Below are positions 16,806 through 21,113 of a stretch of 54,279 nt of DNA, in pieces. Below the pieces are notes generated by a model. It worked only from the letters and a program-made list of their open reading frames with translations, did not search any database and had not been told where the DNA came from. The DNA lies in IMG/VR virus record IMGVR_UViG_3300041411_000172, positions 1 through 54,279 of that record. The stretch is one strand, 5' to 3'. A program made the translations under genes and the position numbers. The DNA comes from a virus. The stretch's first letter is position 1, and each line of letters opens with the position of its first letter.

Positions 16806-16834
16806 AATTTAGAAAACTTAACAAGATCGGTCAA
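16806..16834 (-). promoter_or_regulatory. pL promoter
   Basis: On the minus strand, -35 TTGACC (16829-16834), 17-bp spacer and -10 TAAATT (16806-16811). An operator copy lies in the spacer, as expected for a repressor-controlled early promoter. It drives the leftward operon from 16478 to the integrase. Confidence 0.82.
16808..16824 (-). promoter_or_regulatory. operator OL1
   Basis: A 17-bp sequence, on the minus strand TTGTTAAGTTTTCTAAA, identical to the copy at 16843-16859 and closely related to sites next to the repressor gene. It lies between -35 and -10 of pL. Confidence 0.8.
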
Positions 16835-16885: not shown

Positions 16886-16912
16886 AAAAAAAATCCCGCT
16901 CAATGGCGGGAT
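16886..16912 (-). terminator. leftward intrinsic terminator
   Basis: On the minus strand a hairpin ATCCCGC / GCGGGAT with a six-base loop is followed by eight T residues. It would stop leftward transcripts that pass the nucleotidyltransferase pair before they reach pL. Its 28-bp core is identical to the terminator at 50933-50960. Confidence 0.8.
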
Positions 16913-17011
16913 CTATGGGTTGGAGCCATGGTCAGTACCGCATGTCGCCATGCATGAACGCATCGTTTTGGGGGGGCTCTACCCATCAACAACTAAGGCG
17001 AGGCGCGAGAT

Positions 17012-17233
17012 ATGGACGATTATCGAAGAAACCAGGCTCTGGCCGCGTGGCGCAAGCTTCTGGAGGAGCCCGGGATCCGTATGGACGCTGAGGAGCAGTA
17101 TGAGGAGCTGTTGAAGATGGCAGACGACTTCAAGCTGCAGGGCATCATAGATGCGGATGACTGGCGGGAACTGATCGAGGAGGCCGGCGCCTTCTATGCG
17201 CATACCATCGAGGGGGTAGGTGGGGGTACGTAA
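17012..17233 (+). CDS. small acidic helical protein
   Basis: A 73-aa, almost entirely helical and acidic protein (MDAEEQYEELLKMADDF; ADDWRELIEEAGAFYAHTI). A weak GAGG precedes the ATG by about 10 bases. It runs rightward in the gap between pL and the convergent nucleotidyltransferase partner gene, outside any repressor-controlled operon visible here, so lysogenic expression is possible. Function unknown. Confidence 0.6.
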   Translation: MDDYRRNQALAAWRKLLEEPGIRMDAEEQYEELLKMADDFKLQGIIDADDWRELIEEAGAFYAHTIEGVGGGT

Positions 17234-17253: not shown

Positions 17254-17272
17254 GCCCGGCGCTAGGCCGGGC
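17254..17272. terminator. hairpin between convergent genes
   Basis: Seven-base arms GCCCGGC / GCCGGGC with a five-base loop lie between the stop codons of two convergent genes. The T-run is weak in both directions, so efficiency is uncertain. Confidence 0.5.
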
Positions 17273-17276
17273 GGTG

Positions 17277-18248
17277 TTAAAAAATTTCTTTTTGTTTGGC
17301 TGTTGTCGGTATGGGCTTCACCGAGTCCACAAACATCAACCTTGGGCGACCTGAAGCATCGCATTCATACTCGCCCTCGACAAACACTTGGGATCCAAGC
17401 AGTCTCTGGCCCTGTTCGCTGGTCACGGTTGGCATGACGCATCGAACGGTTCCGATATCGTGGACATTGCGCAGATGAAACCGCCCGGAATCCAGATCGA
17501 TTTCTCGAACCTCACCCGCGAATTTTCCAAATCTTTTGGCGCTTGAAACAGGCTTCTGTAATGCGTCCCTCAATACAACTCTCTCGCGAGCAGTCAAAGA
17601 TGCAACCCTTGCATCAGGAGAGGAGATATCTACGGTATGTATGCCAGCTCGCCCTGTGGGGGAGAGCTTGAACACTGTTTCCAGGCTGGCGTCACGCATT
17701 GCCGGATCGGGGATCAATTCGTTGATCGAACCACTAACGCGCTCATCGCCAATAAATTCTGGGATAGCCGGAAGCTGTCTGATGGCCAGCTTCAGGGTGG
17801 AGAAGACGTGTTCGGGTTCGTCACTGCCCAGGATCGACGGTATCTCGCTGAGAGTGAACCCAGCGTAAATACTTCCAGGAGCGAATCCAGTGAAGCGGAG
17901 ATCCAGATTGTTGGACAGCTTTTTTGCGTCACGATCCGAAAGATCAAAAATTGACCGAGCCAGCATCTTCAGTTGTTTTTCTGCGGAAACGCAGAGCCAG
18001 TTGAAAGCGTGTAGACCTGGCGTTGAGGAGGCAGTTGATGGGCCTTCAGCATGGAATACGAGGTCTGACGTATCGTAGATTTTGGCCAAAGGCATCTCTT
18101 CCTCGTATAGATCACGAAGTTTGCTTTGTAAGAAATCGATCATCTGACCAAGCTCTACCCCATGTTCGATCTGGGTCTGCTTGGCCGCTACGATCTGATC
18201 CTGAAAAACAGACGCCCTCTTATGGACTTGTTCTACCCAAGTTCCCAT
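17277..18248 (-). CDS. 323-aa partner of the rex-position nucleotidyltransferase
   Basis: Unrecognised 323-aa soluble protein. The N-terminal 60 residues are helical (QDQIVAAKQTQIEHGVELG ... LRDLYEEEMPLAKIYD); the middle has LRFTGFAPGSIYAGFTL; a C-terminal beta-rich domain (about 235-320) includes VREIDLDSGRFHLRNV and VFVEGEYECDASGRPRLMF. It overlaps the nucleotidyltransferase gene by 16 bp and has its own GAGGTGG site, so the two are a translationally linked pair. It lies second downstream of the CI-type repressor, matching the place of rexB/rexA in lambda. A role in phage exclusion or as an antitoxin or effector is inferred only from this context. Confidence 0.72.
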   Translation of the reverse strand: MGTWVEQVHKRASVFQDQIVAAKQTQIEHGVELGQMIDFLQSKLRDLYEEEMPLAKIYDTSDLVFHAEGPSTASSTPGLHAFNWLCVSAEKQLKMLARSIFDLSDRDAKKLSNNLDLRFTGFAPGSIYAGFTLSEIPSILGSDEPEHVFSTLKLAIRQLPAIPEFIGDERVSGSINELIPDPAMRDASLETVFKLSPTGRAGIHTVDISSPDARVASLTARERVVLRDALQKPVSSAKRFGKFAGEVREIDLDSGRFHLRNVHDIGTVRCVMPTVTSEQGQRLLGSQVFVEGEYECDASGRPRLMFVDSVKPIPTTAKQKEIF

Positions 18249-18706
18249 GCTTCCACCTCAATTACGCCGCGCGCATCCTTTTCGTTGAGCCCCTTGTCGT
18301 GAGCGGTTTTGGGGCCGACGTACTGAAAAAACTGTCCTAGATTCATGCATCCTATGACCATCAGACTGACATAGAAGTCTGCCCTGAAGGAATTTTTAAT
18401 TCGGGTGTTCTCTGCCCTGCTGCTGAGATCCATCAGTTGGCTATGCGCCACGACCATCGGCGACGGCAAGTATATGGTGGCCTCGATATCAGCGGGGTGT
18501 TCTTTGTCGGAGAAGAAGCTTCCCCCCAACACAAGCTGCAAGCCGAACGCCTTTGCCCTGAGCTCTCCGTCAAGGAAGGACTTCACCTGATGATAAAGGT
18601 CGGTCCTATGCTGGTTAAACAGAAAGCGTTGCTCGATTTCCCTCAGAGTGCCGATATGGACTCCGCCTGGAAGCAATCCTCTTGCGTCTAGCGCTGGTAT
18701 AGGCAT
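18233..18706 (-). CDS. nucleotidyltransferase-fold protein in rex position
   Basis: A 157-aa protein with the minimal nucleotidyltransferase signature: GGSFFS at 61-66 followed by D-I-E at 73-75 (G-S-x9-D-x-E), preceded by LPGGVHIGTLREIEQRF. The pattern resembles the DUF6932-type NTase-like proteins. Members of this fold transfer NMP groups to proteins or tRNA in toxin-antitoxin and defence systems. GAGGA precedes the ATG; the gene starts 20 bp after the repressor stop and would be transcribed with it from pRM in the lysogen. Activity is unproven. Confidence 0.72.
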   Translation of the reverse strand: MPIPALDARGLLPGGVHIGTLREIEQRFLFNQHRTDLYHQVKSFLDGELRAKAFGLQLVLGGSFFSDKEHPADIEATIYLPSPMVVAHSQLMDLSSRAENTRIKNSFRADFYVSLMVIGCMNLGQFFQYVGPKTAHDKGLNEKDARGVIEVEAWELG

Positions 18707-18725: not shown

Positions 18726-19430
18726 TCAGCGCGAATACATCGCCCACCAGAACACATGCCCCAGGATCGATATCTGCTGTTCCTGGATCTGCTGGAACGT
18801 GTAGTCCTCGTCGGGGTGCTCGTCCCGGTTAAAGCTGCGAAGCCTGATCCCCGTGGGAAGGCGGTAAACCTGCTTCACACGGAGCTGACCGTTATGGTTG
18901 ATGGCATACATGTCACCGTCAACGATATCGCTCAGGGTGTTCTTCCCAATGTTCACGCCCACGGTGGCGCCATCGCGTAGCACGGGCAGCATGCTATTCC
19001 CGCCAACCTTCACGCACTTCGCATTGCTGAACTGGACACCGTTCTGGCGGAGATCCTTTTTGAAGAAGCGCAGGCGTGCGCTGTCGCTTTCCTCAATCAC
19101 GAAACGACCTGAGCCGGCCGCCAGTTCCACCTCCTGCAAGAAGGGGACGTAGACCTCATCGTCATCCAATGGGGTCTCGTCGTCCCATGTCTCGATAGAG
19201 GACAGGGCACTGGCTCTCCCATCCTCCGGCGACCCCGCGCCATCAGACAGCCAGTCGGGTGAGCACTCCAGTGTTTTAGCCAGAGCCAAAAGGTTTTTCC
19301 CTTTCGCGCCGTTTGTGCCGGATAGCCAAAAAGAGACCGTCGTCCGGGAGACGCCAGTCCGCTCGCTTATATCTGTCGCACGCAGGCCCAGGACCTCCAT
19401 GCGCGCCTTCACTCGTTCGCTGAAATTCAT
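18726..19430 (-). CDS. CI-type repressor, HTH plus S24 self-cleavage domain
   Basis: A 234-aa lysogenic repressor. The HTH (about 15-40: LRATDISERTGVSRTTVSFWL) binds operators, and the C-terminal LexA/S24 domain has Ser146 in GGNSMLP and Lys186 in RVKQV as catalytic dyad, with a likely Ala105-Gly106 cleavage site. RecA-stimulated self-cleavage would make the prophage SOS-inducible. The ATG is immediately next to an operator, with no strong ribosome site, as in poorly translated cI mRNAs. It is divergent from the Cro-like gene. Confidence 0.95.
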   Translation of the reverse strand: MNFSERVKARMEVLGLRATDISERTGVSRTTVSFWLSGTNGAKGKNLLALAKTLECSPDWLSDGAGSPEDGRASALSSIETWDDETPLDDDEVYVPFLQEVELAAGSGRFVIEESDSARLRFFKKDLRQNGVQFSNAKCVKVGGNSMLPVLRDGATVGVNIGKNTLSDIVDGDMYAINHNGQLRVKQVYRLPTGIRLRSFNRDEHPDEDYTFQQIQEQQISILGHVFWWAMYSR

Positions 19431-19446
19431 AGTTAAGGATTCTAAA
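19430..19446. promoter_or_regulatory. operator-like site OR3
   Basis: Matches 14 of 17 positions of the OL consensus (TAGTTAAGGATTCTAAA) and touches the repressor start codon, where binding would limit repressor synthesis. Confidence 0.6.
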
Positions 19447-19454
19447 CATTGAGG

Positions 19455-19483
19455 TGTTTAGATAACTTGCCTTTTCTTGTTAA
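19455..19483 (-). promoter_or_regulatory. pRM promoter for the repressor operon
   Basis: On the minus strand, TTAACA (19478-19483), 17-bp spacer, TAAACA (19455-19460). It overlaps pR and the operators, as expected for a repressor maintenance promoter. Confidence 0.55.
19457..19473. promoter_or_regulatory. operator-like site OR2
   Basis: The minus strand matches the operator consensus at 12 of 17 positions, mainly in the AAGTT-x-TCTAAA half. With OR3 it forms the inverted repeat TCTAAAC / GTTTAGA at 19441-19462. Confidence 0.5.
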
Positions 19484-19495
19484 TATTTCTAAACT
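19467..19495 (+). promoter_or_regulatory. pR promoter
   Basis: TTGCCT (19467-19472), 17-bp spacer, TAAACT (19490-19495). The spacer contains an operator copy in exactly the same place as in pL. It drives cro, replication and nin-like genes. Confidence 0.8.
19477..19493 (+). promoter_or_regulatory. operator OR1
   Basis: TTGTTAATATTTCTAAA differs from OL1/OL2 at only two central positions and lies between the -35 and -10 of pR. Confidence 0.8.
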
Positions 19496-19523: not shown

Positions 19524-19733
19524 ATGACCTATGACCAAGCCCTGCAATTTTTTCGCACGCCAGGCGCCATCGGTGAAGCCTTGCGCATCACCCGAAGCCG
19601 CGTCTCTCAGTGCAAATCTGCCGGCGGCTTCTCCTACCCAATGCAATGCGTGTTGGAGAAGGAGTCCGCCGGACAGCTCACTGCTAGCCGTCTGGATGAC
19701 CCTGCCAACTCGGCCAAAAAATCTGCCGCCTAA
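19524..19733 (+). CDS. Cro-like/YdaS-type DNA-binding protein
   Basis: A 69-aa protein whose first 50 residues form a helix-turn-helix (YDQALQFFRTPGAIGEALRI TRSRVSQCKSAG). It is the first gene after pR, divergent from the repressor, the place of Cro. It should bind the same operators and favour lytic growth. GGAG precedes the ATG by 9 bases. Confidence 0.8.
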   Translation: MTYDQALQFFRTPGAIGEALRITRSRVSQCKSAGGFSYPMQCVLEKESAGQLTASRLDDPANSAKKSAA

Positions 19734-20309: not shown

Positions 20310-21113
20310 ATGCACCAATCCAACCAAACGATCAATACCCCGGCCAATGTCGCGACACGTTTCGCCGGATCTGAAAACGTGTCGCGCACTATTTCGACAA
20401 TCACTCTCCGCGACATGGTCAACGAGGCGCGCGTTCAATCTGGAGAGGCAAAGGTCCGAAACGACCAATTCATCATCCGCGTCGAAGACGAGCTTTCGGG
20501 CGAATTAGGGGTGTGCAGTTTTATTGCACACCCCCAAAGCGGCGTGATGATGGCGTCGTATGAACTGACGATGGACCAGTGCACCCTGGTGGGCATGCGC
20601 GAATCAAAGGCAGTTCGGCGCAGCGTCCTCAAAAAGCTCAAGGAAATGGAAGGACCCAAACAGCTCTCAACGATCGAAATCCTGCAGATCGCTATGGAGT
20701 CTGAAAAGGCCCGCTTGCTGCTGACCGCCCAAGTCGAGCAACAGGCCACCAAAATCCATTCCCTGGAAAACCTGTTCAAGGAAGGCATGACCCACACCCA
20801 GTTCTGCAAGGGCCTGAATGGGGTCAACGTCATGCAGGTGGGCAAGTACCTGGAAACCCGGAACTGGCTCTACAACGAGAGCAAGTCCGGCCTGCGGCTG
20901 CGCGTGGCTTCCTACGCCCGCGACAAGTACATGACCGAGTATCAGCAAGAAGTGACTCCCCACGGCAAAGAGCCGTTCATTTCCTTCACGCCTGTCCTGC
21001 TGAAGAAGGGTGCCATTCGCCTGTACGACCTGTACCTGGCCGGCGAACTGCCCATGAAGAAGACCTGGGACAGCCTGTTCACCCACGACAAAGCTTTGCG
21101 GGGTGCAGCATGA
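20310..21113 (+). CDS. Rha-like/KilAC-type phage antirepressor
   Basis: A 267-aa protein with an N-terminal Rha/pRha-type segment (FIIRVEDELSG ... YELTMDQCTLVGMRESKAVRRSVLKKLKEME) and a C-terminal KilA-C-type domain (MTHTQFCKGLNGVNVMQVGKYLETRNWLY ... YARDKYMTE). Such proteins antagonise repressors or regulate the lytic switch. TGGAG precedes the ATG by 6 bases. The 5' coding part (codons 14-26) contains a perfect 12-bp inverted repeat that recurs elsewhere in the prophage. The stop overlaps the next start (ATGA). Confidence 0.82.
   Translation: MHQSNQTINTPANVATRFAGSENVSRTISTITLRDMVNEARVQSGEAKVRNDQFIIRVEDELSGELGVCSFIAHPQSGVMMASYELTMDQCTLVGMRESKAVRRSVLKKLKEMEGPKQLSTIEILQIAMESEKARLLLTAQVEQQATKIHSLENLFKEGMTHTQFCKGLNGVNVMQVGKYLETRNWLYNESKSGLRLRVASYARDKYMTEYQQEVTPHGKEPFISFTPVLLKKGAIRLYDLYLAGELPMKKTWDSLFTHDKALRGAA
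20351..20386. repeat. dispersed inverted element, copy 1
   Basis: Perfect 12-bp inverted repeat CGCGACACGTTT / AAACGTGTCGCG with a 12-bp spacer, inside the antirepressor coding region. Three further copies lie at 26918, 32410 and 42615. Confidence 0.8.

Follow-up and report, generated by a model that had tools for sequence, protein, structure and literature searches.

Temperate phages store genes that protect the lysogen in the slot that lambda fills with rexAB, downstream of the CI repressor. The phage DNA examined here carries two overlapping genes, designated A and B, behind its own CI-type repressor, and the question is what these genes encode and what they do for the phage. In what follows, the window is the whole stretch of DNA that was analysed, 54,279 nucleotides long. 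Judged by its gene content it is a temperate phage record: besides the repressor region, it encodes an integrase (at one end), RecE/RecT, a terminase, a major head protein and a tape measure protein. The nearest relatives for the A-B pair are found in Pseudomonas prophages, for example that of P. fluorescens FW300-N2E3.

The gene pair and its place in the immunity region

A preliminary description of this DNA reported two overlapping genes behind a CI-type repressor, and they are found at the positions that it gave (Table 1). The repressor is matched by Pfam (peptidase S24, E 2.8e-18; HTH_3, E 3.9e-10) and by phrog_4 (E 1.4e-51), and its stop codon is separated from the ATG of A by 19 nt. A and B are adjacent on the same strand with A first, as they are in the related loci L001, L003, L008, L010 and L053-L055, and their reading frames overlap by 16 bp. 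A plausible ribosome-binding sequence, read directly from the DNA, precedes each start codon (TGAGGAAAAAGGATG for A and TTGAGGTGGAAGCATG for B). Both reading frames and the overlap are retained in close relatives, and dN is approximately 0.07 compared to a dS above 1.6, which is near saturation. The two genes are therefore more than chance open reading frames, and the pair is under purifying selection.

An operator pattern, GTTWANNNTTCTAAA, was derived from the repeats upstream of cI and then counted over the whole window. It occurs exactly four times in 54 kb, against 0.05 occurrences expected, with two copies at OR and two at OL. Since there are two operator-like copies on each side of cI-A-B, the layout cro, OR, cI, A, B, terminator, OL-PL appears to be that of the lambda immunity region. 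The preliminary description had placed the pair in the rexA/rexB position, and with operator-like copies at both ends this placement looks better founded than was originally claimed. Among the other loci, clear operator repeats flanking the pair (0-1 mismatch) were seen only in L003, L034, L044, L047, L056 and phage mEpX1 (L050), and operator bracketing is therefore claimed for the window alone.

The reverse complement of the OR site next to cI contains a -10-like hexamer, TAGAAT, located about 8 nt upstream of the cI ATG, which suggests that the cI transcript is leaderless, as in lambda. A PL-like promoter is located among the OL copies, although 1.9 such consensus sites are expected by chance in the region. 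The leftward terminator before which the pair had been said to end does exist, but it is not adjacent to the pair: it is about 360 bp past B, and a 73-aa ORF and a hairpin lie in between.

The 73-aa ORF (17012-17233, + strand) is convergent with the pair, lies between B and OL, and matches PHROG 19595, a family with no function assigned (E 1.9e-6). L008 and L006 also have small ORFs resembling it behind B, indicating that it is a conserved neighbour. Just past the Cro-like gene there is a gene for an anti-repressor Ant-like protein (20310-21113, + strand; phrog_63, E 2.8e-36).

Table 1. Features of the cI-A-B region, in coordinates of the window
Feature	Position	Strand	Basis or remark
Gene A: DUF6932 minimal nucleotidyltransferase (assigned by profile), 157 aa	18233..18706	-	G62-S63, D73-I-E75, D110
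Gene B: soluble partner (predicted), 323 aa	17277..18248	-	profile homology and AlphaFold model
CI-type repressor (HTH_3 + peptidase S24), gene 1 of lysogeny operon	18726..19430	-	Pfam, PHROG
OR operator-like site GTTAAGGATTCTAAAC	19432..19447	+	adjoins cI start codon
OR operator-like site GTTAATATTTCTAAAC	19479..19494	+	pattern match
OL operator-like site GTTAAGTTTTCTAAA	16808..16822	-	overlaps PL-like -10
OL operator-like site GTTAAGTTTTCTAAA	16843..16857	-	pattern match
PL-like promoter TTGACC-17-TAAATT	16806..16834	-	consensus match only
Rho-independent terminator, predicted end of cI-A-B transcript ahead of PL	16891..16914	-	z -4.1
Strong GC hairpin directly 3' of B stop codon, without U run	17254..17272	-	z -3.5
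Cro-like regulator, divergent from cI	19524..19733	+	phrog_409 transcriptional regulator, E 1.4e-9

Sequence and fold of the two proteins

The only Pfam family matched by A is PF22014 (DUF6932), with an E-value of 2.1e-18. In PADLOC it matches PDC-M63A (PDLC04744; E 2.2e-7). The name DUF6932 was not found in the literature searched. A nucleotidyltransferase signature, GS-x9-D-x-E, had been noticed in A from the outset and is in place as G62-S63-x9-D73-I-E75, with D110 as the third acid. In an alignment of 24 DUF6932 proteins, R34, G62, S63, P71 and D73 are invariant and D110 is nearly invariant, so that the Pol-beta signature (G-S ... [DE]-h-[DE] plus a third acidic residue) is present. When the DUF6932 profile is compared with solved structures in the PDB, DNA polymerase beta comes first (E 0.013). 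DNA_pol_B_palm is matched by 10 of the 24 members (best 9.2e-6), and Polbeta and NTP_transf_2 are matched by single members. The fold of A is assigned from these profile matches. Together with the alignment, they give good support for A being a minimal nucleotidyltransferase of the Pol-beta type whose GS/D-x-E/D triad is intact, and the original assignment is upheld.

The second protein had been described as unrecognised. This is true for every family library, there being no match to B in Pfam, PHROG, NCBIfam or PADLOC (the last searched to E-values up to 5), but far relatives do exist. A tblastn search of 50,697 phage records and 72,556 plasmid records gave no direct relatives, and scans of viral sequences queried with two B proteins from chromosomes also found nothing. 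Close relatives, with 64-92% identity, come from phage contigs and one Pseudomonas chromosome. When the B branch was compared by hhalign with a profile made from PDC-M63B and chromosomal partners, the match was colinear over residues 39-310 and scored 49.0 (E 2.8e-6); a reversed profile scored 21.5, and none of 200 column shuffles exceeded 25.1. With HMMER, a profile of the B branch finds a 326-aa protein in another genome (L089, E 1.8e-7), and the gene for this protein is again directly behind a DUF6932-like gene. Members of the wider B family match PADLOC PDC-M63B, the best of them with E 1.5e-154. These matches indicate that B is a far relative of the PADLOC candidate PDC-M63B. Because A passes the family model while B fails it, and B is assigned to the family by profile homology and synteny, from its sequence we assign A-B to the PADLOC candidate PDC-M63AB, as a divergent branch of what is itself a predicted defence system. 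The pair can thus no longer be called undescribed, as it was at first, since its family is already catalogued.

B is predicted to consist of an N-terminal helical hairpin (residues ~4-51), a central alpha/beta region and a C-terminal OB-fold domain (~237-312). The AlphaFold model, made with 17 sequences, has a mean pLDDT of 56.6 and is reliable only in the N-terminal hairpin and the C-terminal barrel. Because MAFFT misaligned the C-terminal halves of the two branches with each other, these were excluded. A first model made with six close sequences had a pLDDT of 50 and was discarded. A Foldseek search of the PDB with the C-terminal domain gave OB folds as the top matches, many of them from nucleic-acid binders (ExoVII, LysRS, RPA, CST, SSB), with TM-scores of about 0.5-0.6 against single-domain OB targets. 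The C-terminus is accordingly modelled as an OB fold, and B is probably a DNA- or RNA-binding protein. No conserved R-x4-6-H HEPN motif, HExxH or Walker A was seen in the B alignments, and none of the toxin families in Pfam, PHROG, NCBIfam and PADLOC was matched. Membrane segments were found in neither A nor B (19-residue hydropathy maxima 1.24 and 0.97).

Recurrence of the pair and partners of DUF6932

The branch to which the window belongs comprises eight distinct loci (the window, L001, L003, L008, L010, L053, L054 and L055), and in 8/8 the pair follows a CI/S24 repressor gene that has the same orientation, with small ORFs intervening between repressor and pair in L001, L008 and L010. The same order of repressor, A and B is found in 16 loci of the PDC-M63B, or coliphage-type, branch (L034-L047, L049 and L056), some of which are near-identical, with repressors that are S24-type or HTH-only. 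The preliminary description had held that a lack of co-occurrence elsewhere would count against its proposal; both genes do occur together next to repressors in other prophages, in these two branches. Two of the conditions that it had set for its own refutation were examined, and the proposal stands after both. Annotated carriers are Escherichia phage mEpX1, Erwinia phage vB_EhrS_59 and Escherichia phage PhiR30_1, in all of which both genes are labelled "hypothetical". Pairs of the PhiR30_1 type are present in 96 of 5,426 complete E. coli genomes, and pairs of the mEpX1 type in 18.

The identity of the repressor is decoupled from that of the pair. The CI proteins of the window and L001 are 23% identical, compared to 89/90% for A/B; the corresponding values are 29% and 92/95% for L053 and L054, and 22% and 80/88% for L035 and L040. 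This indicates that A-B is a portable cassette, which phages of Pseudomonas, Escherichia and Erwinia keep beside repressors that are little related to one another.

The ORFs located between the repressor and A in L008 (4657-5412) and L010 (5249-5494) are 75-81 aa long and have a similar start (TKPxQELRRDL-like). Three such ORFs are consecutive in L008, and relatives occur in L001 and L006. In one Pseudomonas genome (G361; L006/L007), a copy from the window's branch follows an S24 repressor; its B gene is divided between two reading frames and is apparently broken.

Partners of DUF6932 were surveyed more widely. In 398 sampled Pseudomonadota genomes, DUF6932 was present in 17, at 18 loci. The gene directly downstream was B-type in 13 of these and XRE-ImmA in 4, and in 1 none was detected by the filter. 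The 399 Pseudomonas genomes contained 22 DUF6932 loci above the cut-off, of which 13 have a B-type partner (one frameshifted) and 2 an XRE-ImmA partner, the others being truncated, solitary, with the partner undetected, or in different long proteins. A repressor precedes 8 of these 22 loci, and the majority of the chromosomal copies sampled are not next to a repressor. A overlaps its partner gene in nearly all surveyed loci. Given that DUF6932 is found with both B-type and XRE-ImmA partners, A is the constant element.

The second partner type, an XRE-ImmA/IrrE gene directly after DUF6932, was observed in L014, L015, L017, L021, L022, L028, L066 and L068. The Acinetobacter case is on an NDM-1 plasmid and adjoins Tn7-like genes. 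An N-terminal helical hairpin common to B and the XRE-ImmA partners is a hint only (L089, E 0.012).

Possible function and comparison with known systems

One precedent for this slot is lambda RexAB (PMC11077077). In P. putida, a two-gene occupant of a comparable Pseudomonas slot, RexABpp, is a real abortive-infection system (PMC12894663), and the MenT toxins provide an example of tRNA 3' extension by the nucleotidyltransferase of a two-gene system (PMC10435456). Based on these precedents and on the position, protein families and recurrence of the pair, the reading that we favour, with a little less than even confidence, is that A-B is a lysogen-expressed phage-exclusion cassette of the abortive-infection type, with B as sensor and inhibitor and A as effector. 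In the lysogen, PRM would give a single cI-A-B transcript ending at the terminator before PL, and the 16-bp overlap would couple translation of B to that of A. B would bind A and hold it silent, while the central and OB-fold domains of B would survey nucleic acid. On the appearance of cognate DNA or RNA from a superinfecting phage, B would release or activate A, which would then transfer NMP to a target, either of the host or of the phage, and so halt infection; precedents for the target are tRNA 3' ends or a protein.

Several points argue against this. The PDC-M63AB family is so far a database prediction, and in its one test, a deletion in E. coli NILS69, there was no change in sensitivity to 10 infecting phages, all of them virulent dsDNA phages (PMC12409345). 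The model of B is weak outside its N- and C-terminal parts, the A-first gene order equally fits A as an antitoxin, the second motif acid in the window branch is E and not D, and most chromosomal copies sampled are not next to a repressor. A more general proposal, which we regard as rather doubtful, is that these loci represent a new exclusion class: a minimal nucleotidyltransferase would be controlled by partners that can replace one another (an OB-fold nucleic-acid sensor or an XRE-ImmA protease), and the combination would be a portable cassette occupying the rexAB position in many temperate phages that are unrelated.

In the main rival reading, the pair is a toxin-antitoxin or addiction system and the roles are swapped: A would be an MNT-type antitoxin that nucleotidylates and silences B, and B a toxin acting on nucleic acid via its OB domain. 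MNT proteins are known toxin-antitoxin partners, from a family described in PMC2701414; A is sized like minimal nucleotidyltransferases, is encoded first, and has the usual overlap with its partner. We consider this unlikely, because B has none of the HEPN, HExxH and Walker A motifs and no toxin family match, and because the XRE-ImmA proteins with which DUF6932 also pairs are more often regulators than toxins. The position inside the immunity region, from OR to OL, would suit a pair that tunes CI/Cro control and maintains lysogeny without a role in defence. RexA has been proposed to bias the lambda switch (PMC11077077), and deleting the pair in NILS69 left phage plating unchanged (PMC12409345). 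However, near-same A and B proteins are kept beside repressors of about 23% identity, implying no dependence on one repressor or operator, and homologues occur outside prophages in many chromosomes, which makes such a modulator quite improbable.

The occurrence of DUF6932 pairs on chromosomes, next to Tn7-like genes on a plasmid, and in phages is compatible with a passenger pair that helps the lysogen under some other stress, such as plasmid entry or starvation, and does not exclude phages; the one published deletion test was negative for defence (PMC12409345). We give this little probability, since temperate phages that are unrelated have repeatedly captured the pair in the rexAB slot, where the characterised occupants are exclusion systems (PMC12894663). 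A true RexAB homologue that has diverged past recognition would explain the shared slot and two-gene layout. It is highly improbable: homology to RexA or RexB was not found, A is a DUF6932 nucleotidyltransferase by its profile, neither protein has a membrane segment such as RexB has, and no RexA chain (RdgC-like fold, DNA binding) was among the PDB profile matches or the top 50 by fold.

The coliphages mEpX1 and PhiR30_1, which have been isolated, carry the pair next to cI, so its function is accessible in laboratory strains. If the exclusion cassette is active, it would tie DUF6932, a Pfam family without known function, to phage exclusion, with A-B as a portable occupant of the slot.

MNT proteins AMPylate HEPN toxins, and the MNT/HEPN systems resemble A-B in having a small Pol-beta-type nucleotidyltransferase in a two-gene operon; B, however, is not HEPN (no R-x4-6-H) and has a predicted OB-fold domain. 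MenAT and AbiE (DUF1814) are similar in that the nucleotidyltransferase is a possible effector, but A belongs to DUF6932 and not to DUF1814/AbiEii, is smaller, and has a partner unrelated to MenA or AbiEi. The DUF6932 pairs with XRE-ImmA/IrrE (Nostoc plasmid L014, Acinetobacter plasmid L015) have the same first gene and the same tight coupling, whereas their second gene encodes an HTH-Zn-peptidase protein. With PDC-M63AB, A-B shares the gene order, the Pfam family of A, a similar length of B, a profile homology that covers most of B, and the post-repressor slot. It differs in that the B of the window branch matches no PDC-M63B model and is about 20% identical to them, its A has D-x-E compared to D-x-D, and the overlap is 16 bp compared to 4. 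RexB is a membrane protein; A-B has no membrane effector and no sequence or fold link to RexA, and it has a nucleotidyltransferase enzyme. In common with lambda RexAB and P. putida RexABpp, A-B consists of two genes that follow a CI-type repressor and are positioned for expression in the lysogen. From its sequence, A-B is not RexAB, but is rexAB-like in its placement.
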